A DNA stretch of 64,000 nucleotides from Sphingorhabdus sp. Alg231-15 (GCF_900149705.1 NZ_LT703001.1:868001-932000); one strand, 5' to 3'; counted from the stretch's first letter, positions 19,971 through 61,605 are shown. Made by a program: numbers and translations. Notes: a model not told the origin generated them from the sequence alone.

Positions 19971-19991
19971 CCTTTCCACGTGACGATCTCT

Positions 19992-23037: not shown

Positions 23038-23063
23038 AGCCCCGCCAGTTTCCTGGCAGGGCT
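23038..23063 (-). terminator. Rho-independent terminator of the second TonB-dependent receptor gene
   Basis: Arms AGCCCCGCCA (23038-23047) and TGGCAGGGCT (23054-23063) pair with one C-A mismatch around a GTTTCC loop. A T-run follows on both strands. It ends 23 bp from the receptor stop. Confidence 0.9.
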
Positions 23064-23085
23064 CTTTTTTGGATTCTGGCTTCGC

Positions 23086-41260: not shown

Positions 41261-41353
41261 GCAAAGCCGCGGATCAGAAGCGAATAGTATATCTTAGGTC
41301 GATGAAAAAACTTCTGCTTTGATCACGGCGCCTTAACATCGCATATCGGTGCC

Positions 41354-42450: not shown

Positions 42451-42452
42451 GC

Positions 42453-44084: not shown

Positions 44085-44502
44085 GGCAATCCGTTTTCGC
44101 GATGACGACGTCCACGAAGAGCCAGCGGTTTCGCTGGATGCCTTTCTGGATCAATCCAATGCCACCGCTGTGCGGATCGAAGCCGGCGAAGATGCCCGGC
44201 TGTTGCTGCCGTTACTAGACCGTCTGGCACTAATAGAGATCGATTTTCCTGTCTTCGGTGATGGTCGCGGCTATTCTGCAGCACAGATTTTGCGCGAAGC
44301 AGGTTATAAAGGAGAATTGCGCGCCAGCGGAGACGTGCTGGTCGATCAGATCGCCTATATGCGCCGCTGCGGCTTTGACGCGTTCGCACCTGATGCTCCG
44401 ATCGATGCCAAGGTCATGAAAAAAGCGCTGGACCTCTATGATGAGGTCTATCAGGGCACAACCGATTCCCGTGCCCCAATATGGAATTTGCGCCATGGGT
44501 GA
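44077..44502 (+). CDS. DUF934 family protein of the assimilatory sulfur operon
   Basis: This 141-residue soluble protein belongs to DUF934, found almost always between cysI and cysH. Conserved segments are IEIDFPVFGDGRGYSAA and MRRCGFDAF. The family function is not experimentally settled to my knowledge. The ATG at 44077 follows a strong AAGGAGG inside the cysI end. It overlaps cysH by 8 bp. Confidence 0.9.
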   Translation: MVEAIRFRDDDVHEEPAVSLDAFLDQSNATAVRIEAGEDARLLLPLLDRLALIEIDFPVFGDGRGYSAAQILREAGYKGELRASGDVLVDQIAYMRRCGFDAFAPDAPIDAKVMKKALDLYDEVYQGTTDSRAPIWNLRHG

Positions 44503-45283
44503 ACCAGCTCGCAAAATTGACATTATCGATGCACGTCCAGACTTTACGCAGGCGGATGCAGATGCGCTGAACGCACGCTTTGAAGGCGTGCATGCATCAG
44601 CCATGCTCAAAACGCTGTTCGAGGAAGGCAATCTCGGCGAAGTCGCTGTTGTTTCATCATTTGGTACAGAAAGCGCGGTCCTGCTGCACTTAGTTGCAAC
44701 GGCCGACCCTTCGATTCCCGTGACCTTTGTCGATACGTTGAAGATGTTTCCAGAAACGCTGGAATATCGTGAGACTCTTATCAAGACGTTGGGCATTCAA
44801 AATGGAAATGTGGTGAAGCCCGACCCTGTCGTTCTCGCCGCAAAGGACGGGAACGAATTACGCTGGTCATTTGACCCGGATGGCTGCTGTGAAATCCGCA
44901 AGGTCGAGCCTTTGGCACGCGCCAAAGCTGATCTCAACAGCTGGATTTCCGGCCGCAAGGCTTTTCAATCTGTCACCCGGCAAAATCTGCCGCGCTTTGA
45001 AGTCGAAGACGGTCGCCTGAAAATCAACCCGCTGGGCGATTGGGTCAAAGATGATCTCGAAGCTTATTTTGAAGAACATGACCTGCCCCGGCACCCCCTG
45101 GAGGCGCAAGGATATCTCTCCGTCGGCTGTGCGCCGTGCACCTCAAAGGTGAAACCCGGCGAAGACCCCCGCGCAGGCCGGTGGCGCGGTTGGGACAAAA
45201 CCGAATGTGGTATTCATGACGAAGTCACACCTCTGCCAATCGCGGATGATGATGAAAGTGGCGCAAACGATCCGATCTTTTAG
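44495..45283 (+). CDS. cysH: Phosphoadenylyl/adenylyl-sulfate reductase CysH (Fe-S APS-type)
   Basis: This enzyme reduces activated sulfate to sulfite with thioredoxin. The ATP-sulfurylase-like PP-loop is SSFGTESAVL. The catalytic Cys238 lies in ECGIH. Cys131-Cys132 and Cys212-x2-Cys215 match the ligand pairs of the 4Fe-4S cluster that marks APS reductases, whereas PAPS-specific enzymes such as E. coli CysH lack them. The ATG at 44495 overlaps DUF934. The operon ends here, followed by a palindromic repeat. Confidence 0.93.
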   Translation: MGEPARKIDIIDARPDFTQADADALNARFEGVHASAMLKTLFEEGNLGEVAVVSSFGTESAVLLHLVATADPSIPVTFVDTLKMFPETLEYRETLIKTLGIQNGNVVKPDPVVLAAKDGNELRWSFDPDGCCEIRKVEPLARAKADLNSWISGRKAFQSVTRQNLPRFEVEDGRLKINPLGDWVKDDLEAYFEEHDLPRHPLEAQGYLSVGCAPCTSKVKPGEDPRAGRWRGWDKTECGIHDEVTPLPIADDDESGANDPIF

Positions 45284-45294
45284 TGGGATTGATT

Positions 45295-45324
45295 GTCATC
45301 TGCTTCATCCCGAAAGCGGACGTT
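45295..45324. repeat. Dispersed palindromic repeat, copy 1
   Basis: The right arm AGCGGACGTT (45315-45324) and the loop TCATCCCGAA are identical to copy 5. The left arm is partly eroded (TCTGCT). It lies between convergent cysH and the first DUF1330 gene, and its last bases are part of the DUF1330 stop codon. Confidence 0.75.
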
Positions 45325-45841
45325 AATTGGGCACGGGAGCAGATGCCATGCGCACCAGCCGTGAATCCGCAACCGCAGCGCTACGATGGAAGGCGTGTTT
45401 TTTATATTCCGGATCACCGACGAGCGCTAAAAAGGATGCAAGATTGGGATAAGAGACAATGAAAACTGCATCCCATTTTTCATGTTCTGGTCCGATCAAG
45501 GTAAGCTGGGGCATTCCGAAATACACTACCTTTCCACCAGCCCGATTGGCAATAGGACCTGAATGGCGACTATATTCCGCGTAAGCCTGCTGGCCGGTCC
45601 AACCCTTGACTGCAAATGCGCTACCGTCTTCATAGCTCGCTTTGTCTTTGAACCGGATCATATTGAGCATGTGCAGCGGTTCATCTGCAGGAAGCTTCTG
45701 CATGGCAGCATAGGCTTTTGCATCGGAGTTTACGTATGTTGCGGGTGCCGTTTCATTGTCTTTGGCACCGACGGGCAAGGCCAATAATGAGGCCATCGTT
45801 AATGTCACAATGGATGTGACCTGGGCGGTAAATATTTTCAT
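45323..45841 (-). CDS. Exported DUF1330 domain protein (first tandem copy)
   Basis: This 172-residue protein has a signal peptide (cleavage near GAKD, residue 26) and a DUF1330 dimeric alpha-beta barrel domain: MLNMIRFKDKASY, then AYAEYSRHSGPIANRAGG, ending DPEYKKHAFHRSAAVADSRL. DUF1330 proteins are usually small and cytoplasmic, so export is notable. It is closely similar over its whole length to the neighbouring copy. Function is unknown. Confidence 0.87.
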   Translation of the reverse strand: MKIFTAQVTSIVTLTMASLLALPVGAKDNETAPATYVNSDAKAYAAMQKLPADEPLHMLNMIRFKDKASYEDGSAFAVKGWTGQQAYAEYSRHSGPIANRAGGKVVYFGMPQLTLIGPEHEKWDAVFIVSYPNLASFLALVGDPEYKKHAFHRSAAVADSRLVRMASAPVPN

Positions 45842-45904
45842 GGTTCAGATACCTTTCAAATGTTTGACTGAATTGACGATTCCCTTGCACTAAAGAATAA
45901 GCAG

Positions 45905-46429
45905 TTACTGTTTTGGAGCAGGCGCAGGAGCCATGCGAATTAGTCTGGAATCCGCGACCCCGGCCTTCCGATGAAAGGCATGTTTCTGATACTCCGGATC
46001 TTCAAAAAGAGCCTGTAAAATGGTCACATCGGGATAGTAGATGATGAAGATCGAGTCCCATTGCTCGTCTTCCGGGCCGATTAAAGTAAGCTGCGGTACA
46101 CCGGTATAGTGTGTGCTGCCACCCAGCCGCGCCACAATTGGCCCTGCGTGGCGGCGATATTCCGCATAGGCCTGAGCGCCAGTCCAGCCTTTCTTCGCAA
46201 ATTCACTGCCATCCGGATATTCTGCTTTGTCCTTTAGCTTGATCATATTGAGCATATGAATTTCTTCATCCATCGGCAGCTTGAACATTTCGCCCAGCGC
46301 CTTTGGGTTGGCATCGATATGACCGTGGTTCGCTGCCGCCTGGTGGTGTTCCGCAGCGGCTGGTGCTGCAGTGGATAGAACCAAAGAGGAGGCCATGATC
46401 GAAGTGATGAGTTTGATGATGAATTTCAT
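45905..46429 (-). CDS. Exported DUF1330 domain protein (second tandem copy)
   Basis: This 174-residue paralogue of the adjacent gene has a signal peptide ending near AAAEH (residue 28), a short His-rich linker (EHHQAAANHGH), and the DUF1330 domain. Shared blocks include HMLNMI, KGWTG, QAYAEY, PQLTLIGPE and KHAFHR. AAAGGTG precedes the ATG. It lies between the MAPEG gene and the other DUF1330 gene, with gaps of about 65 bp, so the three may form one transcript. Confidence 0.87.
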   Translation of the reverse strand: MKFIIKLITSIMASSLVLSTAAPAAAEHHQAAANHGHIDANPKALGEMFKLPMDEEIHMLNMIKLKDKAEYPDGSEFAKKGWTGAQAYAEYRRHAGPIVARLGGSTHYTGVPQLTLIGPEDEQWDSIFIIYYPDVTILQALFEDPEYQKHAFHRKAGVADSRLIRMAPAPAPKQ

Positions 46430-46495
46430 AATGTGAGCACCTTTAGAGAATTCGGTCGAAAACTTGCTAATTGTGGTTATTGATGACGCCTGTTT

Positions 46496-46921
46496 TCAAA
46501 GTGTTGCAAGAAGGTAGGCAAGATACAGACCGAGTGCGATGCCGGTTAATCCAGTACCCATCGCACCGATCATTCTGAAAAATACAAATGGCGTGAATGA
46601 ACTGCCATCGGCATGAGAGCCGGAAAGCGATGAGAACCCAACTGCATGCGATATGCGTGCAATCACAAAAATAGCCGCAAAAATAGTCACGGCGGTGCCT
46701 CCGCCTGTAATTCCTTCGACCAGTGCAAGGATGACAAGAAACAGCGCTCCATTCTCAGCAAGATTGCCATGACGCCGAACCTTCCGTTCAAGCTCCCGGT
46801 CTTCAGAATAGCCAACACCAATTTTGGCCTTTGCCCGGTGCGAGCCCGCATTCATCATCAAACACTGCTGCAATATTATCAGGAAAGCGCCTGCCATTGC
46901 TGTGGTAAGAGGATAGACCAT
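46496..46921 (-). CDS. MAPEG family membrane protein
   Basis: This 141-residue inner-membrane protein has four helices and MAPEG signatures (RAKAKIGVGYSEDRELERKVRRHGN, shown here in parts as DRELERKVR and RHGNLAEN). Family members are glutathione-dependent transferases or peroxidases. Start 46921 follows GGCGGAG; an upstream frame to 46963 lacks a site. Its placement beside GST and peroxiredoxin genes supports a detoxification role. Confidence 0.87.
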   Translation of the reverse strand: MVYPLTTAMAGAFLIILQQCLMMNAGSHRAKAKIGVGYSEDRELERKVRRHGNLAENGALFLVILALVEGITGGGTAVTIFAAIFVIARISHAVGFSSLSGSHADGSSFTPFVFFRMIGAMGTGLTGIALGLYLAYLLATL

Positions 46922-47080
46922 TTTAGTACTCCGCCATTTTTGTGGTTTGATTTGAATGATCACCGAGGATCGTTCATCCGTTATTGGCGGTGCACTAATC
47001 TGTTGTCATTTGGTAGTTGTGCAACTTGGTGGCTTACTCATGCGCCATTGAATTTTGCTCAAGCGTTATTTGCCGTTGAT

Positions 47081-47980
47081 CTAAATGATCCCCAGGAACT
47101 CATGTTTGGCATCACGAAGGACCTTTTCGGCAAAAGTCATGAACGCCTTGATCCGCGCCGTCCGCTTTAGATCACTGTGCGTCAGCAGCCAGATATCACG
47201 TGCCTTGATCGGTTTCTTTTTTGTGGCCCGGACCAGTTGCGGTTCGCGGTCTCCTATAAAACAGGGGATCATGGCTAGACCTAGGCCGCCCTTAGCCGCT
47301 GACAATTGCATCGCCGCTCCCGGAAAACATCCCCACATCGGCACTTTGCTAAACTCTGTTTCCTTCGTCCATTCCGGGAATTTGTTATCATCAGCATCCC
47401 ACGCAACCCATCTTGCAGCTTCCGGATCATTTTCGAAATCCTGAGAATCCAGATATTCCTGAGTTGCGTATACGGTTTGATTATAGGTGATGATGCGTTT
47501 TCCCACGAGCGATTGCGGTGGATTGTTATCAATGCGGATCGCTATATCAGCCTCCCTTCTCGAAACATCCAATATACTGGTCGTCGCGATCATATGCACT
47601 TCGATGCCCGGATGCATGTCGGTAAATTCTGACAATCTGGGGCCAAATGTATGAACGGCAATCGGCTCCGCCATTGTTACGGTCACGACACCGCTCATAT
47701 CGCCATCCTGCCCTGATATTGATCGTTCGGCGCTATTCAGCCGCCCCCCGCAATCTTGTACAGCGGTGACAAATTCCTCGCCGGCGGCGTTCAGGACAAA
47801 GCCTTCAGGCTGTCGATCAAAGAGCTTTGTACCCAGTGCGTATTCGAGACTATCTATCCGGCGGCTCACTGTGGAATGATGAACGCCAAGCGCCCGAGCA
47901 GCCCGTCGGACCGATCCAGCATCCGCAACTACGGCGAAGCTTTTCACCTCTTCCCAATCCAGATGTTGTGCGCCCAGCAT
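47081..47980 (-). CDS. LysR family transcriptional regulator
   Basis: This 299-residue regulator has an N-terminal winged helix-turn-helix (about residues 10-68, with SVRRAARALGVHHSTVSRR in the recognition region) and a substrate-binding domain. It is divergent from the peroxiredoxin-GST-hydrolase-GST genes across 130 bp, the usual place for a LysR regulator of the opposite operon. Repeats of TCAGCAA/TTGCTGA lie in that gap. Confidence 0.92.
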   Translation of the reverse strand: MLGAQHLDWEEVKSFAVVADAGSVRRAARALGVHHSTVSRRIDSLEYALGTKLFDRQPEGFVLNAAGEEFVTAVQDCGGRLNSAERSISGQDGDMSGVVTVTMAEPIAVHTFGPRLSEFTDMHPGIEVHMIATTSILDVSRREADIAIRIDNNPPQSLVGKRIITYNQTVYATQEYLDSQDFENDPEAARWVAWDADDNKFPEWTKETEFSKVPMWGCFPGAAMQLSAAKGGLGLAMIPCFIGDREPQLVRATKKKPIKARDIWLLTHSDLKRTARIKAFMTFAEKVLRDAKHEFLGII

Positions 47981-47992
47981 GCATTGTCTCCC

Positions 47993-48048
47993 TCAGCAAC
48001 TCGTAGTGGCTATCTGATGCAACAGCAAGGTGCGATGTGAATTGCTGA
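47993..48048. promoter_or_regulatory. Candidate LysR binding region with CAGCAA/TTGCTG repeats
   Basis: TCAGCAA (47993-47999) and TTGCTGA (48042-48048) are exact inverted copies 42 bp apart. CAGCAA occurs again at 48023-48028, forming a closer inverted pair with TTGCTG. LysR regulators often bind two such sites in the divergent promoter; here this is inferred. Confidence 0.4.
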
Positions 48049-48110
48049 CGGCTCACTGGTGAAACGATATCAGCACGATCTAGATCATTAGCCTATGGAG
48101 AATTTCCAAC

Positions 48111-48770
48111 ATGTCGCTTCAATCCTTGCTTCAGGCGCAAATGGCAAACTCTGTCACGCAAATCCCACCTGAAGCACTCGAGGTCATGCGCGCCGCAGAC
48201 GACGAACTTAAAGAACGGAAGGTTGGTGCAGATGCGCTAAAGGTTGGAGATTTTCTGCCTTATGCAACGCTCAGTGATGCAACTGGAAACGCTGTTTCAT
48301 TGTCTAGCCTCAACGAGGAAGGTCCCCTCATCATAACCTTTTATCGAGGCGGATGGTGTCCCTACTGCAATCTGGAGCTTAAGGCGTATCAGAATATTCT
48401 TGGCGAGATCACCGGCCTTGGCGGTCAACTGATTGCAATTTCACCCGAGAAGCCAGACAATTCGCTGACGACCATCGAAAAAAATGCTCTCACATTTCCG
48501 GTTTTAACGGACACCGGAAATCGACTTGCCAAAGCCCTAGGAATTGCATTCGAGTTACCCGCGGAACTGCAGCAGCTATTCACAAATTTTGGCATGAATC
48601 TGGATGGACTAAATGCCGAAACCGGTTGGGCGCTTCCTATCCCGGCAACATTTGTAGTGGGCGGCAATGGCCAGATAGTTCTTGCCGATGTTGATATAAA
48701 ATATACCCGCAGACTTGAACCATCGGAGGCACTCGCCGCGTTAAAGTCCTTAACCGCTGCAACAGCTTGA
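48111..48770 (+). CDS. Peroxiredoxin-like AhpC/TSA thioredoxin-fold protein
   Basis: This 219-residue thiol protein has the AhpC/TSA domain with the redox pair Cys83-Pro-Tyr-Cys86 (GGWCPYC) in place of the usual Prx PxxxTxxC. That motif points to a peroxiredoxin-like or thioredoxin-like reductant. GGAG precedes the ATG. It heads a four-gene run with two GSTs and a hydrolase, divergent from LysR. Confidence 0.88.
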   Translation: MSLQSLLQAQMANSVTQIPPEALEVMRAADDELKERKVGADALKVGDFLPYATLSDATGNAVSLSSLNEEGPLIITFYRGGWCPYCNLELKAYQNILGEITGLGGQLIAISPEKPDNSLTTIEKNALTFPVLTDTGNRLAKALGIAFELPAELQQLFTNFGMNLDGLNAETGWALPIPATFVVGGNGQIVLADVDIKYTRRLEPSEALAALKSLTAATA

Positions 48771-48824
48771 ATGCTTTCAAATTCTACTCAATGATCATCA
48801 CGCATAACATAAAGGGAGCATGCG

Positions 48825-49439
48825 ATGATTGATCTATATACTTCAACGACACCAAATGGCCGTAAGATATCAATAGCGTTGGAGGAAATGGGGCTGCCTT
48901 ATCAGGTTCACGCCATTAACCTTCAAAATGATGAGCAGTATGCGCCAGATTTTCTAAAAATAAGCCCAAACAACAAAATACCAGCCATTGTGGATAGTGA
49001 TAATGGCGTGAGCGTTTTTGAATCGGGTGCAATCCTCACATATCTGGCAGAGAAGACAGGTCAGTTTTTGCCCACCGATACACCTGCAAGGATAGAAGTT
49101 CTGGAATGGCTTGCTTGGCAAACAGCTGGGCTGGGACCGATGCTTGGGCAATTAAATCACTTCCTCAATGTCGCCGATGAAAAACTCCCCTACGCGATAA
49201 AACGCTTCTCGGATGAAATGATCAGACTTCTTGGTGTTCTCGATAAGCAACTGGCGAAGCATGAAAATGTGGCAGGCGATTATTCCATTGCGGATATGGC
49301 CATCTATCCGTGGTCATCGGCCGCCTATGACGGTGCAAAAGCCTTAATCGGAACTTCATTCAAAAATCTGGAAACCTGGCATGAAACCATGGCGGCTCGG
49401 CCAGCAGTTCAGGCGGGTATGGCGGTTCCGGACGTCTAG
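48825..49439 (+). CDS. Glutathione S-transferase (YfcG/Ure2p-like)
   Basis: This is a 204-residue soluble GST with a thioredoxin-fold N-terminal domain (LYTSTTPNGRKISIALEE, with the TPNG active segment) and SPNNKIPAI for glutathione binding. The all-helical C-terminal domain contains YSIADMAIYPW. The TTPNG motif groups it with YfcG-type disulfide-bond reductases. GGGAG precedes the ATG. Confidence 0.9.
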   Translation: MIDLYTSTTPNGRKISIALEEMGLPYQVHAINLQNDEQYAPDFLKISPNNKIPAIVDSDNGVSVFESGAILTYLAEKTGQFLPTDTPARIEVLEWLAWQTAGLGPMLGQLNHFLNVADEKLPYAIKRFSDEMIRLLGVLDKQLAKHENVAGDYSIADMAIYPWSSAAYDGAKALIGTSFKNLETWHETMAARPAVQAGMAVPDV

Positions 49440-49487
49440 TTCATATTCGCGCATTGTGGCGCGACAATTCTAAACGGGAGTAAGATA

Positions 49488-50531
49488 GTGAAGAAAATAT
49501 TGCTGAGTATATTGGGGATAGCTGTTCTTGCCGTGGCAATTGCGGGCATTGTTTTAACCCGTGATGGAGAATTGAAAACGCCTACTGGAGAGGGCATGGT
49601 AGCCTTAGAGAATGGTAATTTTGAAGCATTTCCTTTGCCTGACTATGCCGCCAAGTTTGTCGGAGACGACTATAAAAGCTACTTCGTCGAGGTAGAGCCC
49701 AACATCAAAGTCCACGTGTTGGAGGTTGGCTCTGGCTATCCTGTTTATATGCAGCACGGTCTTCCCACATCCGGGTTCCTTTATCGCAAGGTTGCAGATG
49801 AATTGCCGCGGGACCAATTCCGTATCATCATGCCCACTATCGTCGGGCTGGGTTTTTCAAGCAAGATTCCAGCCGGCCAGCACACGCTTGAGAATCATAT
49901 CAGCTGGATGAACGCGACCTTGAATGGATTGGCGATCGAAGAAGCCATTTTTGTCGGCCATGATTGGGGCGGTCCCATTGGCATGGGCGCGCTTGCCCGT
50001 TCTCCTGAATTATTGAAGGGCGCAGTGATCCTGAATACCGTACTCGATTCGGCTAAAGAAGAACGAGATCTGGCGCCCCCTCTTGTCGTCGCGAATACGC
50101 CTGTGGCTGGTGAGATTTTGTTTGAGGGCCTTGTATCCATATTTGGGCAACTACCGTCCTTTCAGGCAGACCCTGCCTCGATGCCGGAAGACGTCATCCA
50201 GCTTTATGAAAAACCGGTGCGGGATAGCGGTAATGCCAAGGGCATATTGGCGATGATGCGCATGTCCCCAGACGGCCCGGATCACCCCAGTTCAAAACAG
50301 TATCGAGAACTGGAAGAATATTATCAGGGACGCGAGTTTCCGACGGAAATAGTTTGGGGAATGCAGGATTCCATTTTGGCTAAAAGACTGTCGGACATGA
50401 AAAAGAATTTCCCCAATGCGGTCGTGACCGAAACGCAAGGAGGGCATTTTTTGCAGGAAGAAACACCTGAAGAAATTGCCTCCGCCGTGCTGCGGGTTTA
50501 CTCCCGAATTCAACCCGTCGCAGAAGAATAG
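49488..50531 (+). CDS. Membrane-anchored alpha/beta hydrolase, haloalkane dehalogenase/epoxide hydrolase-like
   Basis: This 347-residue protein has one N-terminal hydrophobic segment (residues 4-23) that is a signal peptide or anchor. The nucleophile elbow GHDWGG holds Asp159 instead of Ser, as in haloalkane dehalogenases and epoxide hydrolases. The oxyanion block HGLPTSGFLYRKV resembles the HGxPTxSYLYRK of those enzymes. The catalytic His is probably His320 in GGHFLQEE. The start is GTG with GGGAG upstream. Dehalogenation versus epoxide hydrolysis is not resolved by sequence. Confidence 0.87.
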   Translation: MKKILLSILGIAVLAVAIAGIVLTRDGELKTPTGEGMVALENGNFEAFPLPDYAAKFVGDDYKSYFVEVEPNIKVHVLEVGSGYPVYMQHGLPTSGFLYRKVADELPRDQFRIIMPTIVGLGFSSKIPAGQHTLENHISWMNATLNGLAIEEAIFVGHDWGGPIGMGALARSPELLKGAVILNTVLDSAKEERDLAPPLVVANTPVAGEILFEGLVSIFGQLPSFQADPASMPEDVIQLYEKPVRDSGNAKGILAMMRMSPDGPDHPSSKQYRELEEYYQGREFPTEIVWGMQDSILAKRLSDMKKNFPNAVVTETQGGHFLQEETPEEIASAVLRVYSRIQPVAEE

Positions 50532-50551
50532 AATCAAATGGAACCCAGCAT

Positions 50552-51319
50552 ATGAAATCAGTAAAACTATTCGGTTATTCAACCAGCCCCTATGTCCGGA
50601 AAACTGGTTGTTTTCTCTACTATAAAGGTATCGATTTTACACATGTTCCTGTCAATCCTATGGAGCCTGAAGCCACCATTGGATTCACCGAACAAACTCA
50701 GGTTCCTGTGCTGGAAATTGACGGCGAATGGAGACTGGAATCTTCTGCCCATGCGCATTGGCTAGACGAGCTATTTCCGGAAAAGCCTCTTTGCCCTGCA
50801 CAGCATAAAGCAAAGATCGAAGAAATCGACAAATGGGTTAGCGATACTTTTCTTCTGAGCATCTTCAGATATTCGATTGATGGTGAAATGAATCACCGCT
50901 TCCGGCAAGCAGGCTGGCGTTTAGCCGCGATCCTAAGCGCACAGACACCGCTTCCCGAACAAGCTCGCCATCTATGGCCCGAAGCTTTGAAAAAAGCACC
51001 GTTCATTCAAGATATGGCTAAACATATGGATTTGACCGAAAGCTACCAAGATATGCAGCTTCGGATAGCGGGCGAACTTGTAGGCCATATTGGTGATGGC
51101 CCCTATCTGGGATCACTCGATCAGCCAACCATGCTCGACTTTGCCATTTTTCCACAAATGGTATGGGGATATATGTTCGGATTGGAAGAACATCTGAGCG
51201 CGGCAGCACATCCAGTTATCAAAGCATGGCTGCAGCGCGTTGCAGTCCATTTGCCCGACAATCCTACGCTATCGCCGGATTTTATGCAGGTACACTCAAT
51301 TGCTGATGGTTTGAGTTGA
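50552..51319 (+). CDS. Glutathione S-transferase-like protein
   Basis: This is a 255-residue GST-fold protein with an N-terminal thioredoxin-like domain (YSTSPYVRKTGCFLYYKG, with Ser/Pro-Tyr active segment and a nearby Cys) and QVPVLEIDGEW. The C-terminal helical domain includes YLGSLDQPTMLDFAIFPQ. It is the last gene of the peroxiredoxin-led run. Substrate is unknown. Confidence 0.85.
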   Translation: MKSVKLFGYSTSPYVRKTGCFLYYKGIDFTHVPVNPMEPEATIGFTEQTQVPVLEIDGEWRLESSAHAHWLDELFPEKPLCPAQHKAKIEEIDKWVSDTFLLSIFRYSIDGEMNHRFRQAGWRLAAILSAQTPLPEQARHLWPEALKKAPFIQDMAKHMDLTESYQDMQLRIAGELVGHIGDGPYLGSLDQPTMLDFAIFPQMVWGYMFGLEEHLSAAAHPVIKAWLQRVAVHLPDNPTLSPDFMQVHSIADGLS

Positions 51320-51332
51320 TTGTGATTAGCTC

Positions 51333-51362
51333 ATGTCCGCTTTTGCGTCCTTAGCGGACGTT
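51333..51362. repeat. Dispersed palindromic repeat, copy 2
   Basis: Arms ATGTCCGCT (51333-51341) and AGCGGACGT (51353-51361) enclose a TTTGCG-type loop. It lies between the GST gene and the convergent lipoprotein gene. Confidence 0.82.
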
Positions 51363-51395
51363 GGCGATTTCGTATCGCGAAGATATATTGAACGA

Positions 51396-51779
51396 TCACA
51401 ACTTGATGCAGCGTTGTTCGAAATCAGAATAGCGAAAATTCTCAACATCAATAAAAATTGAATTTTCCGAACCATCGGGGTTCGTAATCGGATCACGACG
51501 GAATCTAGATCGAACTTTCAACCCAGTGGCATTACATATTTTGATCAATAGATGATTTGGGCCGACCCAGTCCAACTCGATCTCATCTACTATGGCTCCG
51601 TCTGCTTCCAGTGCAATACCAGGATGCAGCAATTTGCCATCGTTTCGGTTCTCCAAATTGATACGTGTTAGATTGCTGCTCATTGCTCCACGCAACATCA
51701 CCGAAACTTTCGCAACAGCCTTTCCATCCGGAGATTGTGCTGACGATTTTGATGTCCAGTTTCCGCAGGAGCAAACCAA
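51396..51779 (-). CDS. Small lipoprotein-like unknown with disrupted signal sequence
   Basis: This 127-residue frame begins at a TTG with VCSCGNW, then SPDGKAVAKVSVMLRG and LDWVGPNHLLIKI, a pattern seen in small envelope lipoproteins (DUF5412-like at most; not certain). An ATG at 51817 encodes a good signal start, MTLKFILALPF, but in another frame. One extra A in the six-A run (51783-51788) would join the two into a lipoprotein with LVCSC as lipobox. So the gene is either a recent frameshift, a phase-variable site or a sequencing error. Confidence 0.55.
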   Translation of the reverse strand: MVCSCGNWTSKSSAQSPDGKAVAKVSVMLRGAMSSNLTRINLENRNDGKLLHPGIALEADGAIVDEIELDWVGPNHLLIKICNATGLKVRSRFRRDPITNPDGSENSIFIDVENFRYSDFEQRCIKL

Positions 51780-51856
51780 ACTAAAAAAGGCAAAGCCAAA
51801 ATGAATTTAAGTGTCATTTCGATATGCTATCAGGTGATAATGATCGTCACAAATAC

Positions 51857-51887
51857 AATGTCCGCTCTTGCACCCAATGCGGACATT
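51857..51887. repeat. Dispersed palindromic repeat, copy 3
   Basis: Perfect arms AATGTCCGC (51857-51865) and GCGGACATT (51879-51887) enclose a CTTGCACCCA-type loop. It lies in the divergent gap between the lipoprotein and the acylase, so it cannot be a terminator for either gene. Confidence 0.85.
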
Positions 51888-51906
51888 AGCGTTGCGGCGA
51901 CTATAT

Positions 51907-51922
51907 CCCGACAGCGGACATT
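51907..51922. repeat. Dispersed palindromic repeat, half copy 4
   Basis: CCCGACAGCGGACATT matches the loop end and right arm of the repeat family. The left arm is missing. It lies 20 bp after copy 3. Confidence 0.6.
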
Positions 51923-52021
51923 GTCGCTTAACTCAAATTTCGATCAGTCGAACATTGCACTCTCCTTCACGATAGCTATGCTTTTCAATACGGAAACTAA
52001 TAGAGTTTGGATCAACAGATA

Positions 52022-54184
52022 ATGCCATGGAAACGCGGACTAAAATGGAGCGGCGTCCTGATGATCTTTGGGATCATTGCAGCGAGCGTTTTCCTGTGGG
52101 ATCCCTTGCCCGCTAATCCCTCTTCGGAAATATTGGCAGCTAATGCATCCAAATATGATGCCGAGATTATCCGGGACAATTATGGCGTCCCGCATATATT
52201 TGGTAAAACCGATGCCGATGTGACCTTTGGCGTCGGCTATGCCCATGCCGAAGATGATTTTCAGACCATTCAGGAAAGCGTGGCTGCGACACGCGGACTA
52301 ATGGCAAGGTATAACGGCAGCGACGGAGCGCCCACCGATTATATTGTGGCGTTGTTTGATGTTTGGGACACGGTCGATGCTAAATATGAGAGCGAAGTCT
52401 CCGATGAAGTCAAAGCAATAGCCGATGCTTACGTTGCGGGACTAAACCTCTACGCGTCGGAGAACCCCGATAAAATCATGCATGGCCTCGCTCCGTTTAA
52501 AGCCAAGGATGTCATTGCGGGCTCCTTGTTTAAGACGCCATTTTTCTATGGTTTGGATGGCACCTTGCTCGAACTATTCTCGGATGACCGGATGGCCGAA
52601 ATTGCGCTTGATCCCGGCAACGGCGAAACCGCATGGATGGTCTCCGACCGCAAGGCGCCAAAGCGCGGTTCCAATGCTTTTGCGGTCGCGCCATCGCGTT
52701 CGACTGATGATGTGACGCGGTTGATCATTAATTCCCATCAGCCCATGACAGGACCCGTTGCCTGGTGGGAAGCCCATTTGGTTTCGGAAGAGGGCCTGGA
52801 TATTCAGGGCGGCATGTTCCCCGGATCACCGATGGTTTTGCATGGCTTTAATCGCAATCTTGGATGGGCCAATACGGTCAGCAATCCTGATCTTAGCGAT
52901 GTCTATAAACTCGTGATCAATCCGAAGAATGAAAACCAATACCGACTTGACGGTAAATGGGAGAATTTCGAAGTCAAAACTGCAAAGATCAGAATCAAAA
53001 TTTTTGGCCCATTTGCTTACACGTCGGAACAAAAAATCTTGCGCTCCCAACATGGTCCGGTGATTCAATCTAAAAAAGGCAGCTTTGCGATCCGCTACGC
53101 CGGCATGGGGGAGATGCGGCAAACCGAGCAACGGTTGAAAGTCAGCAAAGCCAGAAACTGGGATGAGTTTTATGCGGCCATGTCTATGAACGCGTTGCCC
53201 AGCATCAATTATGTCTATGCTGACAAAGACGGTGTTGTTGCACTGATCCACAACGGACAGTATCCCAATCGCGTCGAGGGTTGGGATTGGACTAAGGACA
53301 TGCCCGGCGACCGTTCCGATCTGATCTGGGATGGCTATCGCCCCTATGACGCGGTTCCGATATTGCTCAATCCAAAATCTGGTTTTGTCTATAATTCCAA
53401 TAACCAGCCCTATGACGCCACCGATGGCCCGGACAATTTACGCCCTGAAGATTTTCCCAAATCCATGGGGTTGCAAACCGATCAGACCAATCGGTCGCTG
53501 CGGATCATGGAGCTAACCGACGGGATTACCAAATTGGACCGCGCAGCGCTCCTCGCGATCAAATTTGATACCGGCTACGCGAAGAATTCTCAGGCGGATA
53601 AGGTCGTATCGGCGGTTCTGGGACACGATTGGAGCGCCGAACCGGATATGGCTGCAGCGGCGAAACATCTGGCCGCATGGAATCGCAAGATGGACATTAA
53701 AAATCGGCACGCAGCGCTTGGCGGCCTGACCGTAGTGCACGAAATCACCGAGCGGTTTACAAAGATACCAGCGCCCGAGCCGCTTGATGCGTTTCGCCAA
53801 GCAGTCGATTATCTCAACAAGCATTATGGCCGCATTGATCCTGAATGGGGAGAGATTAACCGGTTGGTTCGTGGTGACCTCAGCCTGCCTGTCAGCGGGG
53901 CATCAGATACATTACGCGCTATCTATCCCGCTGAAGTGCGCGATGATGGAAAACTACATGCAATCGCAGGCGACACTTGGATTGCTATGGTCGAATGGGA
54001 TCGGTCGGGCAAACAATCTGCCAGGGTTATCCATCAATTTGGCAACGCCACGTTGGATAAAAACTCACCCCATTATGCCGATCAAGCCGAGCTATTTGTT
54101 GCTGAAAAATGGCGTACTGCCTTAATTGAACGCGGTGAGATTGAGGCGGCGGCAACTAGGCGTTATCGTCCCGGTCGTGAGTGA
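52022..54184 (+). CDS. Penicillin acylase family Ntn-hydrolase (acylase precursor)
   Basis: This 720-residue precursor probably splits itself into two chains to give an amidase such as an acyl-homoserine lactone or beta-lactam acylase. The beta-chain nucleophile is Ser217 in RGSNAFAV, after a linker typical of the family. An N-terminal membrane segment (residues 7-25) anchors or exports it. Other family blocks are RDNYGVPHIFG and YAHAEDDFQ. The ATG at 52022 is preferred over a TTG five codons earlier, but neither has a strong ribosome site. Quorum quenching is possible, not shown. Confidence 0.9.
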   Translation: MPWKRGLKWSGVLMIFGIIAASVFLWDPLPANPSSEILAANASKYDAEIIRDNYGVPHIFGKTDADVTFGVGYAHAEDDFQTIQESVAATRGLMARYNGSDGAPTDYIVALFDVWDTVDAKYESEVSDEVKAIADAYVAGLNLYASENPDKIMHGLAPFKAKDVIAGSLFKTPFFYGLDGTLLELFSDDRMAEIALDPGNGETAWMVSDRKAPKRGSNAFAVAPSRSTDDVTRLIINSHQPMTGPVAWWEAHLVSEEGLDIQGGMFPGSPMVLHGFNRNLGWANTVSNPDLSDVYKLVINPKNENQYRLDGKWENFEVKTAKIRIKIFGPFAYTSEQKILRSQHGPVIQSKKGSFAIRYAGMGEMRQTEQRLKVSKARNWDEFYAAMSMNALPSINYVYADKDGVVALIHNGQYPNRVEGWDWTKDMPGDRSDLIWDGYRPYDAVPILLNPKSGFVYNSNNQPYDATDGPDNLRPEDFPKSMGLQTDQTNRSLRIMELTDGITKLDRAALLAIKFDTGYAKNSQADKVVSAVLGHDWSAEPDMAAAAKHLAAWNRKMDIKNRHAALGGLTVVHEITERFTKIPAPEPLDAFRQAVDYLNKHYGRIDPEWGEINRLVRGDLSLPVSGASDTLRAIYPAEVRDDGKLHAIAGDTWIAMVEWDRSGKQSARVIHQFGNATLDKNSPHYADQAELFVAEKWRTALIERGEIEAAATRRYRPGRE

Positions 54185-54200
54185 CTAGCGAAATTCGAAC

Positions 54201-54230
54201 AATGTCCGCTTCATCCCGAAAGCGGACGTT
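54201..54230. repeat. Dispersed palindromic repeat, copy 5
   Basis: Arms AATGTCCGCT (54201-54210) and AGCGGACGTT (54221-54230) enclose loop TCATCCCGAA, the same loop as copy 1. It starts 16 bp after the acylase stop, so it could act as a 3' hairpin. Confidence 0.85.
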
Positions 54231-54335
54231 GGATTTGAGATCGTGGATAATTTCTTTACATTGCTGAATTGTGCAGTTTGCTTTGTTGCGAGATTAAGCA
54301 GTCGTATGTGTGTCAATTTATTGTTGAAAGCAAAT

Positions 54336-54755
54336 ATGAAATTAGCTCTTCCGGCCTTGGCGATCCTTCTTCTAACCATGGCAAGTTGTGGATCGCGACC
54401 TTTACCTTCTGAACCCTGCGTTGCGATGTCTCATTCCAACTGGCAGGTTATTGGTGATGCCGAACCGCCCGGTCCACCTCGGCTTTTCTTATCAGGAGAA
54501 GTTATCTTGCCGGACGAAGGATACAAACCCGTTTTTGTTCGCCGGAAATCAAACCTTTCGGGCAATGCTCAGACACTGATTCTCGATTTACAATTTCGCT
54601 CGCCGGTTAATCTGAGCAATCCCAAACTGACAGCAGATCCTATCAATCCAACGCAACTTAAAGTGAGTCATCGAGCACAGGGAAAGTACCAACGCATTCA
54701 ACTGATCTGTGGGGACTTGGTGCTCTGGGAAAATGATATCGGATATGGCCTCTGA
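54336..54755 (+). CDS. Small lipoprotein of unknown function
   Basis: This 139-residue protein has a lipoprotein signal: KLALPALAILLLTMASC, with Cys19 as lipidation site (MASC). The mature part is beta-rich and has two more cysteines (EPCVAM and LICGDL). I do not recognise a family. The ATG at 54336 gives a standard signal length; upstream starts at 54243 and 54306 would lengthen it unnaturally. Confidence 0.72.
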   Translation: MKLALPALAILLLTMASCGSRPLPSEPCVAMSHSNWQVIGDAEPPGPPRLFLSGEVILPDEGYKPVFVRRKSNLSGNAQTLILDLQFRSPVNLSNPKLTADPINPTQLKVSHRAQGKYQRIQLICGDLVLWENDIGYGL

Positions 54756-54800
54756 GTGTGGCGCCTTGCAATTGAGCAATCAACAGCGGTTGCTAAAATT

Positions 54801-54828
54801 GTGACCGCTCCATACCGAAAGCGGACAC
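54801..54828. repeat. Dispersed palindromic repeat, copy 6
   Basis: Arms GTGACCGCT (54801-54809) and AGCGGACAC (54820-54828) pair with one mismatch. The loop CCATACCGAA belongs to the TCATCCCGAA subtype. It lies between the convergent lipoprotein and NmrA genes. Confidence 0.75.
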
Positions 54829-54853
54829 TAGCACTCGATCCTCACGATGCTCC

Positions 54854-55702
54854 TTAGATGTTTCGAGGAACTTTCCAACGCTCGATATTGCGTGCGACAA
54901 AGCCAGTGAAGTCTTGCGGCGCGATTCCGGTCAGCTCCGTGACTGAACCGGAAAGCTGAGCTTCACCGCCGACCGCAATAGCGGTATCCATTGCAGCAAG
55001 TAACTCCGCATAGGTTCTGTTCATTCCGTCCGTTTCGAAGCGCTCTATCAATTCTCGTTCACTCAGATGATGATGGGTAATCGTACAACCCAAAGCATCG
55101 GACAGGACCTCGGCAACCTCGTCATAGGAAAGCAACTGTGGTCCAGTCAGAATCGCGTCATCGTCGGGAATGTTAGGGTCCGTTAGCGCAGCAGCGGCCA
55201 CCGCCGCAATATCATCGGCGTCAACGAATGGAACCCGTCCATCTCCTGTCGCTGAATAGATCGCCTGTTCATCGCGAATGGTTGGCAGATGCTGCTGCTC
55301 CGAAAAATTCTGCATGAACCAGGTGGGACGCAAGACGAACCAGCCTGGCGCATGTTCATGCAGGTAACGGTGCACAGCACCCATCATCGGACCGCCTTCC
55401 TCGAGCGAGGAGGCGCTGAGCAACACAAAGCGCTCCACACCACTGTCAATCGCGCGGTCGATAAATGGTTTCATGGCGGCCAGCGGTTCCGGAACGTTCG
55501 CAGGTGCGACAAGATATATCGCTTTGACTTCATCCAGTGCCGCTTGGTAGCTGCCTTGATCTGCCCAATCAAACCAGACCTGATCGGCTCCATCGGGGTT
55601 TCTGGTTGCAATACGGGGGCTATGCCCGCTTGCGCGCAGTTGTTTGGCAAGACGGCTTCCCGTCTTGCCGGTTCCGCCGGTGACAAGGATTTTATTAAGC
55701 AT
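54854..55702 (-). CDS. NmrA-like NAD(P)-binding protein (atypical SDR)
   Basis: This 282-residue atypical short-chain dehydrogenase has the Rossmann motif TGGTGKTGSRLA at the N-terminus and ATRNP after the second strand. The active-site YxxxK of classical SDRs is lacking, as in NmrA/QOR2-like sensors or NAD(P)H-binding reductases. GGAGG precedes the ATG inside the end of the SnoaL gene. It is the last gene of a four-part unit facing AraC. Confidence 0.88.
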   Translation of the reverse strand: MLNKILVTGGTGKTGSRLAKQLRASGHSPRIATRNPDGADQVWFDWADQGSYQAALDEVKAIYLVAPANVPEPLAAMKPFIDRAIDSGVERFVLLSASSLEEGGPMMGAVHRYLHEHAPGWFVLRPTWFMQNFSEQQHLPTIRDEQAIYSATGDGRVPFVDADDIAAVAAAALTDPNIPDDDAILTGPQLLSYDEVAEVLSDALGCTITHHHLSERELIERFETDGMNRTYAELLAAMDTAIAVGGEAQLSGSVTELTGIAPQDFTGFVARNIERWKVPRNI

Positions 55703-56159
55703 TGTCGGCCTCCTTCAATGCTGCGGCAATGGCGTCATCGCCGCCCATCGCGCGCAGTGCGATCAGGGGGTTCCAGTAGTCGCGATAGTGGGTGATATGC
55801 CCATCCGCCAAGGTCACCACAGATATATAGGTTTGATCGTAGGCAATCCCGGTTTCGGTGCCATGACCGGTGCAGGTGAATTCCAATATTATGATATTGG
55901 AATTCTGTGCGCGATGCACCACCGGCTCTGACATTGACTCGATCGTGATGAGCGAGGCGGCTCCCGGCAGATATTCTACTAGTGCTGCCTTCCCTTCCAC
56001 ACGGGGCACAGCGGCCGGCGGTGCATAGGGAAATTCCATGACGATATCATCGGCTACCATATCCAGAAACGTTTCAGCATCCGGGACTAGAAAGTCATCA
56101 AGCGCTTCCCGCAGCAGACCGGAGAAGCTGGAAAATTGATCGGGTTGATTGGTCATCAT
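55695..56159 (-). CDS. SnoaL-like NTF2-fold protein
   Basis: This 154-residue protein has a SnoaL-like fold (about residues 15-135; DDFLVPDAETFLDMVADDIVMEF in parts, HYRDYWNPL at the C-terminal strand). Such proteins are isomerases, cyclases or ligand binders. AAAGGAG precedes the ATG. Its start overlaps the stop of the aldo/keto reductase remnant, and its end overlaps NmrA by 8 bp. Confidence 0.85.
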   Translation of the reverse strand: MMTNQPDQFSSFSGLLREALDDFLVPDAETFLDMVADDIVMEFPYAPPAAVPRVEGKAALVEYLPGAASLITIESMSEPVVHRAQNSNIIILEFTCTGHGTETGIAYDQTYISVVTLADGHITHYRDYWNPLIALRAMGGDDAIAAALKEADNA

Positions 56160-56308
56160 GCCGCACTCCTTTCGCTATCCAGATGTGCCAGCTGAGACTC
56201 CGGAAACCGGGCACCTGCGGCACTGCCATAGACATCCGACATGCCCATACAGCCTAAGCCAACAACAACGGTGGTGGGTCCTGCATTTCCTAGTTTACGC
56301 TGTTCCAT
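56156..56308 (-). pseudogene. Aldo/keto reductase N-terminal remnant
   Basis: A 50-codon frame begins MEQRKLGNAG and continues VVGLGCMGMSDVYGSA, which is the conserved first strand and loop of aldo/keto reductases (normally about 330 residues). After residue 30 the sequence departs from the family and ends at a TGA overlapping the SnoaL start. An AAAGGA ribosome site is kept. A large internal deletion is the simplest explanation. Confidence 0.75.
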
Positions 56309-56338
56309 ATATAGTTCCTTTCGCGCCGGGGGGGGGAG

Positions 56339-57073
56339 TTAAAAGTCACTCGCGGTTGGGCGAACAATCACTTCGCTGACGTCGACATCGTCCGGTTGTT
56401 CGATGGCAAAACGGATCGCGCGGGCAATGGCATCGGGTTCGATCGCCACTTTGCGAAAGTCCGCCATGGCTTGAATGGAGGCGCCATCCGTTATGTCGCC
56501 GCCCAATTCGGAGGTTACGACGCCGGGCGAGATGATCGTCGCGCGAATGTCCTTATGCTCTTGCCTTATGCCGTCGGTAATGGCCCAGACAGCAAATTTT
56601 GTTGCGCAATAGACCGCGCCGGTTGGCACAACATAATGTGCTCCAAGCGATGCAATATTGACGAACTGACCTGTCCCGCGCGCAATAAAATGCGGCAATA
56701 CAGCGGCGACTCCGTTCAACACGCCGCGCATATTGACATCAATCATCCGGTCCCACTCATCGACCTTTAGAGCGGACAATGGCGATACCGGCATGATGCC
56801 AGCATTGTTGACAAGCACGTCTATCGAGCCAAATCTGTCGATAGCGGCATTACCAAAGGCGCGCATTTCATCGCGGTCGGTAACATCGACCTTTTGATAA
56901 ATCGCGTTGCCGCCGGCAGCATTAATCTCGTCGCACAGCGAAGCCAATGGTTCCGTGCGCCGTGCGCCGAGAACGAGCTTGGTCCCACTCTGGCCGAGCA
57001 AGCGGCAGGTTGCGGCGCCAATCCCGCTGCTGGCACCGGTAATCAGCACCACTTTTTCCATTGCTGGTTTCAT
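56339..57073 (-). CDS. Classical short-chain dehydrogenase/reductase (SDR)
   Basis: This 244-residue oxidoreductase has TGASSGIG for the cofactor, NNAGIMP after the fourth strand, catalytic Ser in NIASLGAHY and YCATKFA (Tyr-x3-Lys). It belongs to the YdfG-like group; the substrate is unknown. The ATG at 57073 follows GAGGAG; the longer frame to 57271 runs through the divergent promoter. A G9 run (56328-56336) lies just after the stop. It heads the unit divergent from AraC. Confidence 0.92.
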   Translation of the reverse strand: MKPAMEKVVLITGASSGIGAATCRLLGQSGTKLVLGARRTEPLASLCDEINAAGGNAIYQKVDVTDRDEMRAFGNAAIDRFGSIDVLVNNAGIMPVSPLSALKVDEWDRMIDVNMRGVLNGVAAVLPHFIARGTGQFVNIASLGAHYVVPTGAVYCATKFAVWAITDGIRQEHKDIRATIISPGVVTSELGGDITDGASIQAMADFRKVAIEPDAIARAIRFAIEQPDDVDVSEVIVRPTASDF

Positions 57074-57239
57074 TTCAATCTCCTCAAACATGATCCGAGA
57101 CATCATCGTCTCTTGGCATTCTGAATATGGCTGATGCTTGTCCGAAGGCGGTAGAATGCTAATCCGCAAGTCTTGCCTGATCCTCCAGAATGAATGGCTT
57201 GTGGTTGTCTGGATGCAAAATCCGTGAGATAAAGTGGTC

Positions 57240-58136
57240 ATGAACAAAGCGCAGGAATTGAGCGATATCATCGGTCGTCATCAGACTTTTGACGGCATCG
57301 AGCCGTGCGCATTGCCGCGGGTTAAGCTTATACGATCCAAGACGACCACGGCATCCATGCCGACAATTTATGAGCCTTCTCTATGCCTTGTCGCGCAAGG
57401 CCGGAAACATGTGGTCCTGGGTCATTTGGACTATGTTTATGATGCATCCCAATATCTTGTGGCGTCCGTTGATCTGCCGCTGCAAGGTTCCATCATCGAA
57501 GCAAGCGAGGAACGCCCTTATTTATGCATCAGCCTTGACCTCAATGTAACGGTTCTCAGTGAACTGTTGCTGGAACATGGGACCGGTGCACCCAAGACCA
57601 CATCAAAACCTGGAATAGCACTCAGTACCGTCACGCCAGATCTTATCGACGCGATGGTCCGCTTGCTGCGTCTACTCGACACGCCAGAAGATATTCCTGC
57701 ACTTGCCCCTTTGGCGGAGCGCGAAATTCTTTACCGGCTGTTGACCGGTGAACAGAGGGAGATGATGCGTCATATTGCCAATGCTGAAAGTCATCTCAGC
57801 CAGATCAGCAGAGCAATTATCTGGATCAAAAACCATTATGCTAAGCCATTCAGCATTGATCGGCTGGCACAGGAAGCTGGAATGAGTAGCTCGTCATTGC
57901 ACGAGCATTTCAAGGCTGTGACAACCTACACTCCGCTACAATATCGGACTCGCCTTCGCTTGCAGGAAGCCCGTAGGATCATGGTTTCCGACGCCCTGGA
58001 CGCGGCCAGTGCGGGTTTCAAGGTGGGTTATGAAAGCCCGTCCCAGTTCAGCCGTGACTATTCCCGGATATTTGGCGCGCCGCCGATGCAAGATGCGCAA
58101 CGGCTGCGGGCGACTCCCGATTTTGCCATGGCGTAA
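57240..58136 (+). CDS. AraC family transcriptional regulator
   Basis: This 298-residue regulator has the AraC-type N-terminal cupin-like domain (PF06719 group, PTIYEPSLCLVAQGRK) and a C-terminal double HTH (about residues 190-290; FSIDRLAQEAGMSSSSLHEHF in parts, VGYESPSQFSRDY). It faces the SDR unit across 166 bp and probably activates it. The ATG at 57240 is preferred over a GTG two codons earlier. Confidence 0.92.
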   Translation: MNKAQELSDIIGRHQTFDGIEPCALPRVKLIRSKTTTASMPTIYEPSLCLVAQGRKHVVLGHLDYVYDASQYLVASVDLPLQGSIIEASEERPYLCISLDLNVTVLSELLLEHGTGAPKTTSKPGIALSTVTPDLIDAMVRLLRLLDTPEDIPALAPLAEREILYRLLTGEQREMMRHIANAESHLSQISRAIIWIKNHYAKPFSIDRLAQEAGMSSSSLHEHFKAVTTYTPLQYRTRLRLQEARRIMVSDALDAASAGFKVGYESPSQFSRDYSRIFGAPPMQDAQRLRATPDFAMA

Positions 58137-58249
58137 AACTTTGTTGCTTCACATCCTAGTCGTCAAGCCGATAGTTGCCCGGAATTACTACGCCAATTCC
58201 GTGCGGTTGTCAGATTCCCATGCCGGCATGTCCCTCACTTACGATTTCT

Positions 58250-58280
58250 AACGTCCGCTTTTGCGCCCAAAGCGGACATT
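58250..58280. repeat. Dispersed palindromic repeat, copy 7
   Basis: Arms AACGTCCGCTTT (58250-58261) and AAAGCGGACATT (58269-58280) pair with one C-A mismatch around TGCGCCC. It lies between the AraC gene and the convergent tRNA-Cys, and is the longest-stemmed copy. Confidence 0.85.
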
Positions 58281-58413
58281 AGAATGACCATCAAAGCCCA
58301 TCAAATATCGACGTTCTAGTCTGGTTGAAACTTTCATTTTGGCTAGGATGGTCTTCCGCAGAATTGGCCAATCCAAAAATAGTCCATCATTTTCAATGCT
58401 TTGCAATGAAAAA

Positions 58414-58487
58414 TGGAGGCCCGAGCCGGAATCGAACCGGCGTACACGGATTTGCAATCCGCTGCGTCACCACTCCGCCATCGGGCC
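58414..58487 (-). tRNA. tRNA-Cys (anticodon GCA)
   Basis: The 74-nt gene has acceptor arms GGCCCGA/TCGGGCC, anticodon loop TTGCAAA with anticodon GCA, discriminator U and an encoded CCA. The T-arm contains GTTCGATTC. A U discriminator is a tRNA-Cys identity element. Confidence 0.97.
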
Positions 58488-58651
58488 GGAGAGGAAGCGC
58501 AATTGCTTCGCTTTACCGCCAATGTCAACCCCAACCTGCTCATGCACATCGATGATAATGTAACGCAAAAGTCGCGGTAGAAAGAAAAACCCTGAAATCC
58601 GTCTTGGCGATACCGCTAAGTAAGGCTAGAAGCTCCTGAAAAATATTCATA

Positions 58652-58673
58652 CTGTATTGCCTTAATAATACAG
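58652..58673. promoter_or_regulatory. Inverted repeat upstream of the pcm-tolC-popZ genes
   Basis: CTGTATT (58652-58658) and AATACAG (58667-58673) are perfect inverted arms separated by 8 bp, about 70 bp before the pcm start. They are placed like an operator; no binding protein can be named. Confidence 0.35.
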
Positions 58674-58740
58674 AGATGGCATAGCCGTTTCAGAGAATTG
58701 AATTTTTAGGGCAAAACATGGACGTCTTAAGGGTGGTATA

Positions 58741-59394
58741 GTGGGTCACGAAAACTTCAGTGAAATGCGCAAAGCGATGGTTGTCAGCCAATTACGAACG
58801 ACCGATGTCAGCGATCCTCGTGTTATTGCTGCGATGAGCCATGTGGCTCGCGAAAATTTTGTTCCAGCCTCCGCCCGCAATATCGCTTATTCTGATCGTG
58901 GTGTTAATATTGGTGAAGGGCGTTCGCTCAACGCACCGCTCGCCACCGGTCGATTGCTGAACACCGCAGAACTGACCAAAAATGATACGGTCCTGCTTAT
59001 CGGTGCAGCGACCGGCTATACGGCTGCGGTCATCGCAGATCTGGCGGGCTCGGTCGTCGCAGTCGAACAGTCAGCCAAGCTGGCCGCAAAAGCGAAGTCT
59101 AATCTTGCTGACCTGGACAATGTGCAGGTCGAAAGAAGAAATCATGTTGATGGCTTCGCCGCCCAGGGTCCTTATTCCGTTATCGTTATTGACGGTATTG
59201 TCGAAGAATTTCCGGCAGCATTGGCCAAGCAACTGGCTCCCGAAGGTCGTCTGGTTGGCGCGATCATGGATAAGGGTGTTGCAAGACTTGCGATCGGGCA
59301 CAAGGTTGGCGAGACAATCGGATACCAATATTTCGCGGATTGTGGCGGCGTTGCCCTGCCCGGCTTCGAAAAAGCGAAAAGTTTCAGTTTCTAA
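58741..59394 (+). CDS. pcm: Protein-L-isoaspartate O-methyltransferase-like protein
   Basis: This 217-residue SAM-dependent methyltransferase is of the PCMT family, which repairs isoaspartyl residues. It has RENFVP, NIGEGRSLNAPLATGR and VLLIGAATGYTAAVIA (SAM site). Alphaproteobacteria often place this divergent pcm directly before tolC, as here. The start is GTG with AAGGGTGG upstream. Whether it truly acts on isoaspartate is not established for this subgroup. Confidence 0.9.
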   Translation: MGHENFSEMRKAMVVSQLRTTDVSDPRVIAAMSHVARENFVPASARNIAYSDRGVNIGEGRSLNAPLATGRLLNTAELTKNDTVLLIGAATGYTAAVIADLAGSVVAVEQSAKLAAKAKSNLADLDNVQVERRNHVDGFAAQGPYSVIVIDGIVEEFPAALAKQLAPEGRLVGAIMDKGVARLAIGHKVGETIGYQYFADCGGVALPGFEKAKSFSF

Positions 59395-59437
59395 TATGCG
59401 GTCTGCACTGCACATAAATTCCAGGAGACGTTTTTTG

Positions 59438-60901: not shown

Positions 60902-60998
60902 TCACATCTGATGTGCCGGGAATGGTTGCCGACAATGTGGTTAATGCGCTAAGCAACCAATAGCAGCGTTAGTTTTTTGAGCTTTAGGGGTTTTGCAC

Positions 60999-61565: not shown

Positions 61566-61605
61566 TCTCGATTGATAACATTGTGAGCCGTGCTAAACTC
61601 TGCTC

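Follow-up and report, generated by a model that had tools for sequence, protein, structure and literature searches.

The window analysed here is a 64,000-nucleotide stretch (G000:C1:868001-932000) of the 3.62-Mb genome of Sphingorhabdus sp. Alg231-15, a member of the family Sphingomonadaceae referred to below as G000. Between 45.3 and 58.3 kb it carries a region of gene cassettes separated by palindromic sites and enclosed by conserved flanks (Table 1). Two tandem DUF1330-like secreted-protein genes, which are tandem paralogues, open this region at 45323-46429. Repeats of other kinds were also observed: a unit of ~67 bp (AAAAG...TGTGAACTTTG) lies in three tandem copies at 34100-34263 with spacings of 68 and 67, two near-identical terminator-like hairpins stand 3.1 kb apart at 19936-19975 and 23029-23068, and beyond the window about 1 kb is duplicated in tandem within G000:C1:788287-790538 (91-94% identity).

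Table 1. Palindromic sites, cassettes and flanking genes of the cassette region, in window coordinates
Feature	Position	Strand	Details
Conserved left flank, cysH-like	44438-45283	+
Type-2 site, weak left arm	45295-45324	+	Outermost border on the left, closely following cysH; spacer ATCCCG at 45307-45312
Multi-gene cassette segment	45325-51331		Two DUF1330-like genes, MAPEG, LysR, AhpC/TSA, GST, alpha/beta hydrolase, GST
Type-1 site	51332-51362	+	Spacer TGCGTCC
One-small-ORF cassette	51363-51856		ORF 51396-51779, minus strand; no Pfam match
Double site	51857-51922	+	Type-1 unit 51857-51887 and degenerate type-2 unit 51893-51922
Acylase cassette	51923-54200		Penicillin-amidase-family acylase 52007-54184
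Type-2 site	54201-54230	+
One-small-ORF cassette	54231-54799		ORF 54243-54755; no Pfam match
Type-2 site, weak left arm	54800-54829	+
NmrA-like, SDR and AraC-type gene cassette	54830-58249
Type-1 site	58250-58280	+	Outermost border on the right
tRNA-Cys, start of conserved right flank	58414-58487	-

The palindrome is a 30-31 bp site of the tyrosine-recombinase type, with arms AATGTCCGCTTT and AAAGCGGACATT around a spacer of 6 or 7 bp. Type-1 sites have the layout AATGTCCGCTTT-TGCGCCC-AAAGCGGACATT (12-7-12) and type-2 sites the layout AATGTCCGCTTT-ATCCCG-AAAGCGGACATT (12-6-12), the left arm of the latter often being degenerate. Double sites, found in many copies in the genome, consist of a type-1 site, a short link (typically TAGCGTT) and then a type-2 site, ~66 bp in all; their outer arms are conserved, their inner arms are degenerate, and one position is mismatched in most copies. 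As the patterns used to collect sites included the spacers, these look somewhat more conserved than they are. Two inverted arms of 11-13 bp, an overlap of 6-8 bp and crossover within that overlap define a tyrosine-recombinase core site, and these sites qualify because of their 12-7-12 or 12-6-12 layout and because arms are exchanged at TGCGCCC in the empty-site comparison described below.

This anatomy is shown, as is orientation, which is identical in all six sites of the window. The window's double site matches four further double sites in the genome at 86%, and AATGTCCGCT with no more than one mismatch occurs 16 times in the window against 5.4 expected from shuffles, with 10 of the 16 inside the listed sites. 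The original prediction, made from the sequence alone, had counted seven copies and none in the remaining 50 kb. Arms are present at all seven named places; however, the copies at 51857 and 51907 form one double site, which corrects the count to six sites. Those named at 45295 and 54801 belong to type 2 and have a weak left arm, and that at 58250 is intact. The claimed absence held for full sites, none of which was found in the window outside 45.3-58.3 kb, where a single 12-nt arm at no more than one mismatch lies at 14026.

The sites are predicted to be able to fold, but without covariation exceeding column make-up: it rose above the level of shuffles neither for a pair of local hairpins nor for a fold like that of attC. 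Thus, dyad protein-binding sites account for their conservation no less well than folding does, and recombination of a folded single strand, as in attC, stays possible without being supported. An Rfam search of the window returned tRNAs only.

Comparison with related genomes places several gene-content differences at these sites. The closest relative, G020 (93% identity), is colinear with both window flanks (40689-45326 and 58248-62421), and the gap from flank to flank is 2.2 kb in G020 versus 12.9 kb in G000, with both breaks inside palindromes. On the left, G020 homology runs across the first site and ends at 45326, and a block starting at 45322, part of the multi-gene segment with its left edge at the palindrome, is located elsewhere in G020. 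Right-flank homology of both G020 and G011 starts at 58248, and the cysH homology of 15 other genus members stops at or before the cysH stop codon. The acylase cassette also occurs in G019:C4, at a different place, and the NmrA-like, SDR and AraC-type cassette was found in G017, G019, G023 and G013, with homology in G017 and G019 beginning at 54829.

Cassettes are also duplicated within the genome. At 953026-953633 lies a cassette of 608 bp whose second copy, at 3107742-3108349, is inverted and 100% identical, and one of ~700 bp (777987-778685) recurs at 99% identity across a contig end; the edges of both lie within ATCCCGAAAGCGGAC or directly beside it. At the 777.3-780.0 kb locus, G000 and G020 again differ between two palindromes. 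The clearest junctions come from an 8-kb array at 1173.1-1181.2 kb, where G020 is continuous and has one degenerate site (spacer TCCGCCC). The left junction in G000 consists of the target left arm, TGCGCCC and the element right arm, and the right junction of the element left arm, TGCGCCC and the target right arm. This arrangement corresponds to the attB, attL and attR of a tyrosine recombinase whose overlap is 7 bp, although insertion in G000 and deletion in G020 cannot be distinguished. The duplicated cassettes, the in-site breakpoints and the exchange of arms at the spacer of the empty site are shown, and a cassette defined as a gene plus one site, with edges inside the site, is met by the two duplicated cassettes and the one empty site. 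Overall, 10 of the 32 distinct homology ends have a palindrome within 10 bp, versus 2% expected (P=6e-10, from three loci); ends were merged within 15 bp and are not fully independent, and certain breakpoints are 30-250 bp away from a site or have none near them.

Genome-wide, 30 perfect-core palindromes were found, versus 1 for a reversed-pattern control. The at least 76 type-2 anchors are strongly clustered: when the genome is divided into 73 bins of 50 kb, 52 contain none, and the variance/mean ratio is 7.2 versus 0.99 under uniform placement. Neighbours within 1.5 kb of each other form 35 pairs against 2.3 expected, and all 35 are co-oriented, whereas only 7 of 15 pairs more than 30 kb apart agree. 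Spacing between sites within arrays, also shown, is typically 400-900 bp, and most arrays hold one small, mostly unknown ORF per gap. Among 20 array ORFs tested, 15 had no Pfam family and the others gave an APH-type kinase, DUF4262, DUF3885, PD40 and a weak TIR match just under the cut-off. Array ORFs point in both directions, which counts against the cassette reading. A 20-kb array at 3.104-3.124 Mb yielded few inter-species breakpoints because its cassettes are almost absent from the seven relatives searched. Members of the genus carry from 0 to 53 perfect cores, and sampled members of the order's other families 0 or 1.

These data bear on the remaining claims of the original prediction, which saw the palindromes as borders of every cassette, proposed no mechanism for them and named uniform density across the genome as a refutation. 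The border claim held, supported by the homology breakpoints, both outer borders in G020 and the crossover at the empty site, and the genome-wide density test did not refute it. 'Every cassette' needs refinement, as some gene-content borders have no palindrome, for example the end of G020 homology at 49315 and another border at 56226. A terminator role, which the original prediction had called insufficient alone, was rejected as the main explanation, as the sites border duplicated and replaced segments.

A candidate enzyme, R1, was reached through a weak match to the integron-integrase model TIGR02249 (24 bits, cut-off 265). It is a 208-aa protein consisting of the catalytic domain only (G000:C1:3115046-3115669; PF00589, E=2e-20), and it satisfies the R-K-H-R-H-Y criterion, with R59, K87, H156, R160, H182 and Y191 invariant in 14 homologues. 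All five intact copies (G000, G011, G017 and two in G020) lie between inverted type-1 sites ~698 bp apart, and the resulting ~760-bp modules are similar only as far as the palindromes' outer edges. Core sites number 30, 40, 53, 33 and 34 in the genomes with R1 or its fragments, versus 15 or fewer in other scanned genus members, a comparison without phylogeny correction; G019, with 34, has R1 fragments only. In G000, G011 and G014 a site is found close to R2, a second relative (56% identity).

The R1 family is common in Proteobacteria (at least 582 confirmed stretches), and AGCGGACA is enriched about twelvefold downstream of its genes (0.27 versus 0.022 per kb). Near-identical elements carrying distant relatives of R1 diverge after GGCCA, beyond which come target half-sites near NNAGCGGACA / AAGCGGACA. 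As a side observation, R1 relatives mostly from Pseudomonas and its relatives form ~750-bp elements with termini TGGCCGGTTAGCG / CGCTAACCGGCCA that are flanked by target half-sites similar to TGTCCGCTTT and AAAGCGGACA. Class-level co-occurrence of the recombinase family with site number was unsupported in one sample outside the genus. G045, a MAG that is 93% complete, has 45 palindromes and no R1-family member that we could find; G057 and G164 have an R1-family gene and no arrays. Thus, as the link between recombinase and palindrome fails in this sample, R1 as the acting enzyme is an inference. Separately, G007:C29:126568-127368 and G001:C31:173-997 encode tyrosine recombinases of 299-320 aa that score ~100 bits against the integron-integrase model, under its cut-off.

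We propose that the palindromes are core sites of conservative site-specific recombination by a tyrosine recombinase. Their two inverted ~12-bp arms would bind the recombinase, and strands would be exchanged in the 6- or 7-bp overlap. DNA between like-oriented sites would leave as a circle, a form we infer, and enter another site; such transfer from site to site would build cassette arrays as well as hot spots in the chromosome, window 45.3-58.3 kb among them. We infer that the recombination is probably performed by R1 and its kin, small tyrosine recombinases that have hardly been studied. That the palindromes act as cassette borders is very probable, and conservative site-specific recombination within the spacer is similarly well supported, although no recombination was directly observed. 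The whole model, in which recombinase core sites build cassette arrays, is likely under the same reservation. For an R1-family enzyme as the actor, which is inferred and again without recombination directly observed, the balance of evidence is moderately in favour.

Three rival explanations deserve consideration, each of which we regard as unlikely. The palindromes could be REP/MITE-like repeats that insert between genes, with apparent borders arising from their build-up in acquired, weakly constrained DNA. Their many copies, mostly intergenic position, restriction to the genus and variation from 0 to 53 copies between species are consistent with this. However, orientation is uniform in 35 of 35 close neighbours, entire cassettes occur in duplicate, their edges falling inside the site, and the empty site shows arms exchanged rather than a repeat gained. 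No conserved tetranucleotide foot of the REP GTAG/GGAG type was evident in the aligned sites. We therefore disfavour this reading, with the caveat that the genome was not searched for RAYT.

Alternatively, RecA-dependent homologous recombination between dispersed repeats could suffice, without a dedicated recombinase acting on the sites. The sites are repeats of 30-70 bp, and such exchange would also put breakpoints inside them, as seen. Against this, the empty-site target in G020 shares only ~15 bp with the G000 junctions, with one mismatch and diverged arms, and the R1 modules are bounded by the sites. It could also be that XerC/XerD, as in Acinetobacter dif modules, or another recombinase uses the sites and that R1 is a passenger. 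XerC/D-like genes are present, and the R1 family and site number do not track each other outside the genus; but each of the four genomes with an intact R1 has it between type-1 sites, and the same half-site motif also flanks its distant relatives. The arms of dif are unlike AAAGCGGACATT, and neighbouring sites of dif modules are inverted, whereas those here are co-oriented. Core sites of a dedicated tyrosine recombinase remain our preferred reading.

In the open-access literature searched we found no description of this cassette system (subscription papers were outside reach). The arm sequence occurred in open-access paper texts only within primers, and the RepRanger and Sphingopyxis papers contained nothing on the palindrome. 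Integrons are the textbook gene-capture platform of bacteria, and they are extremely rare in Alphaproteobacteria according to IntegronFinder 2.0 (PMC9024848). A bolder reading is that an integron-like cassette system arose in Alphaproteobacteria independently of IntI/attC, using catalytic-domain-only tyrosine recombinases and simple and double GTCCGC/GCGGAC sites, and that small mobile elements across Proteobacteria are driven by the same recombinase family. We consider this as likely to fail as to hold. If it is true, there is a second cassette platform, unrelated to integrons and with an enzyme and sites of its own, and such a design has evolved more than once; an explanation would follow for a class of puzzling intergenic palindromes, as some alphaproteobacterial 'palindromic repeats' may be cassette sites of R1's recombinase family; and a compact recombinase with short, defined sites would be available for genome engineering. 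The sites also offer a sequence handle for mobile genes missed by integron tools that rely on IntI and attC models.

Among known systems, FimB/FimE-type invertases resemble R1 in its ~200 aa, its catalytic domain alone and the sites placed as inverted repeats around it. R1 matches them weakly, however (23 bits, cut-off 221), and is linked to cassette arrays, not a phase switch. REP/BIME, RIME and similar repeats, including the 'MSALPPKAD' palindromes, are likewise intergenic palindromes in tens of copies; the sites here in addition border mobile cassettes and, as inferred from sequence comparison, act as crossover sites. Three other Alphaproteobacteria (G045, G053 and G159) contain palindromes with the same arms and other spacers (for example ATGACCC and ACCCCCG), G045 having double sites as well. 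These are likely repeats of the 'MSALPPKAD' kind, and it is possible that they too are cassette sites. The likeness to palindromes of other Alphaproteobacteria that the original prediction had mentioned fits those of G045 and G053.

Acinetobacter dif (pdif) modules are moved by XerC/XerD and swap between replicons. Like the cassettes described here, they are gene modules bordered by arm-spacer-arm sites of ~28-30 bp, with a 6-bp spacer. Our system differs in its arms, its co-oriented rather than alternating sites, its chromosomal arrays and its non-Xer candidate enzyme of 208 aa. A definition of dif modules by XerC/XerD arms and alternately inverted sites does not fit it, as neighbours are co-oriented and the arms differ.

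Chromosomal integrons and CALINs share more with this system: co-oriented palindromic sites separate mostly unknown small genes, a gene moves with its site, and the enzyme is a tyrosine recombinase. The integron-type arrangement of a co-oriented array with one small gene per cassette is met, and the double site recalls the attC layout, with its two simple sites in inverted order. Unlike in integrons and CALINs, single simple sites also serve here, arrays are scattered over the genome, arms are ~12 bp, a conserved fold is not shown, and boxes AAAGCGGACATT stand in place of GTTRRRY/RYYYAAC. No IntI was found: a TIGR02249 search of 24 genomes, including 15 of this genus, gave nothing over the cut-off. 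The attC consensus is also not met, with GTTRRRY ends in 4 of 196 units and RYYYAAC starts in 1 of 196. Although it fails the IntI and attC membership tests, the system works like an integron.
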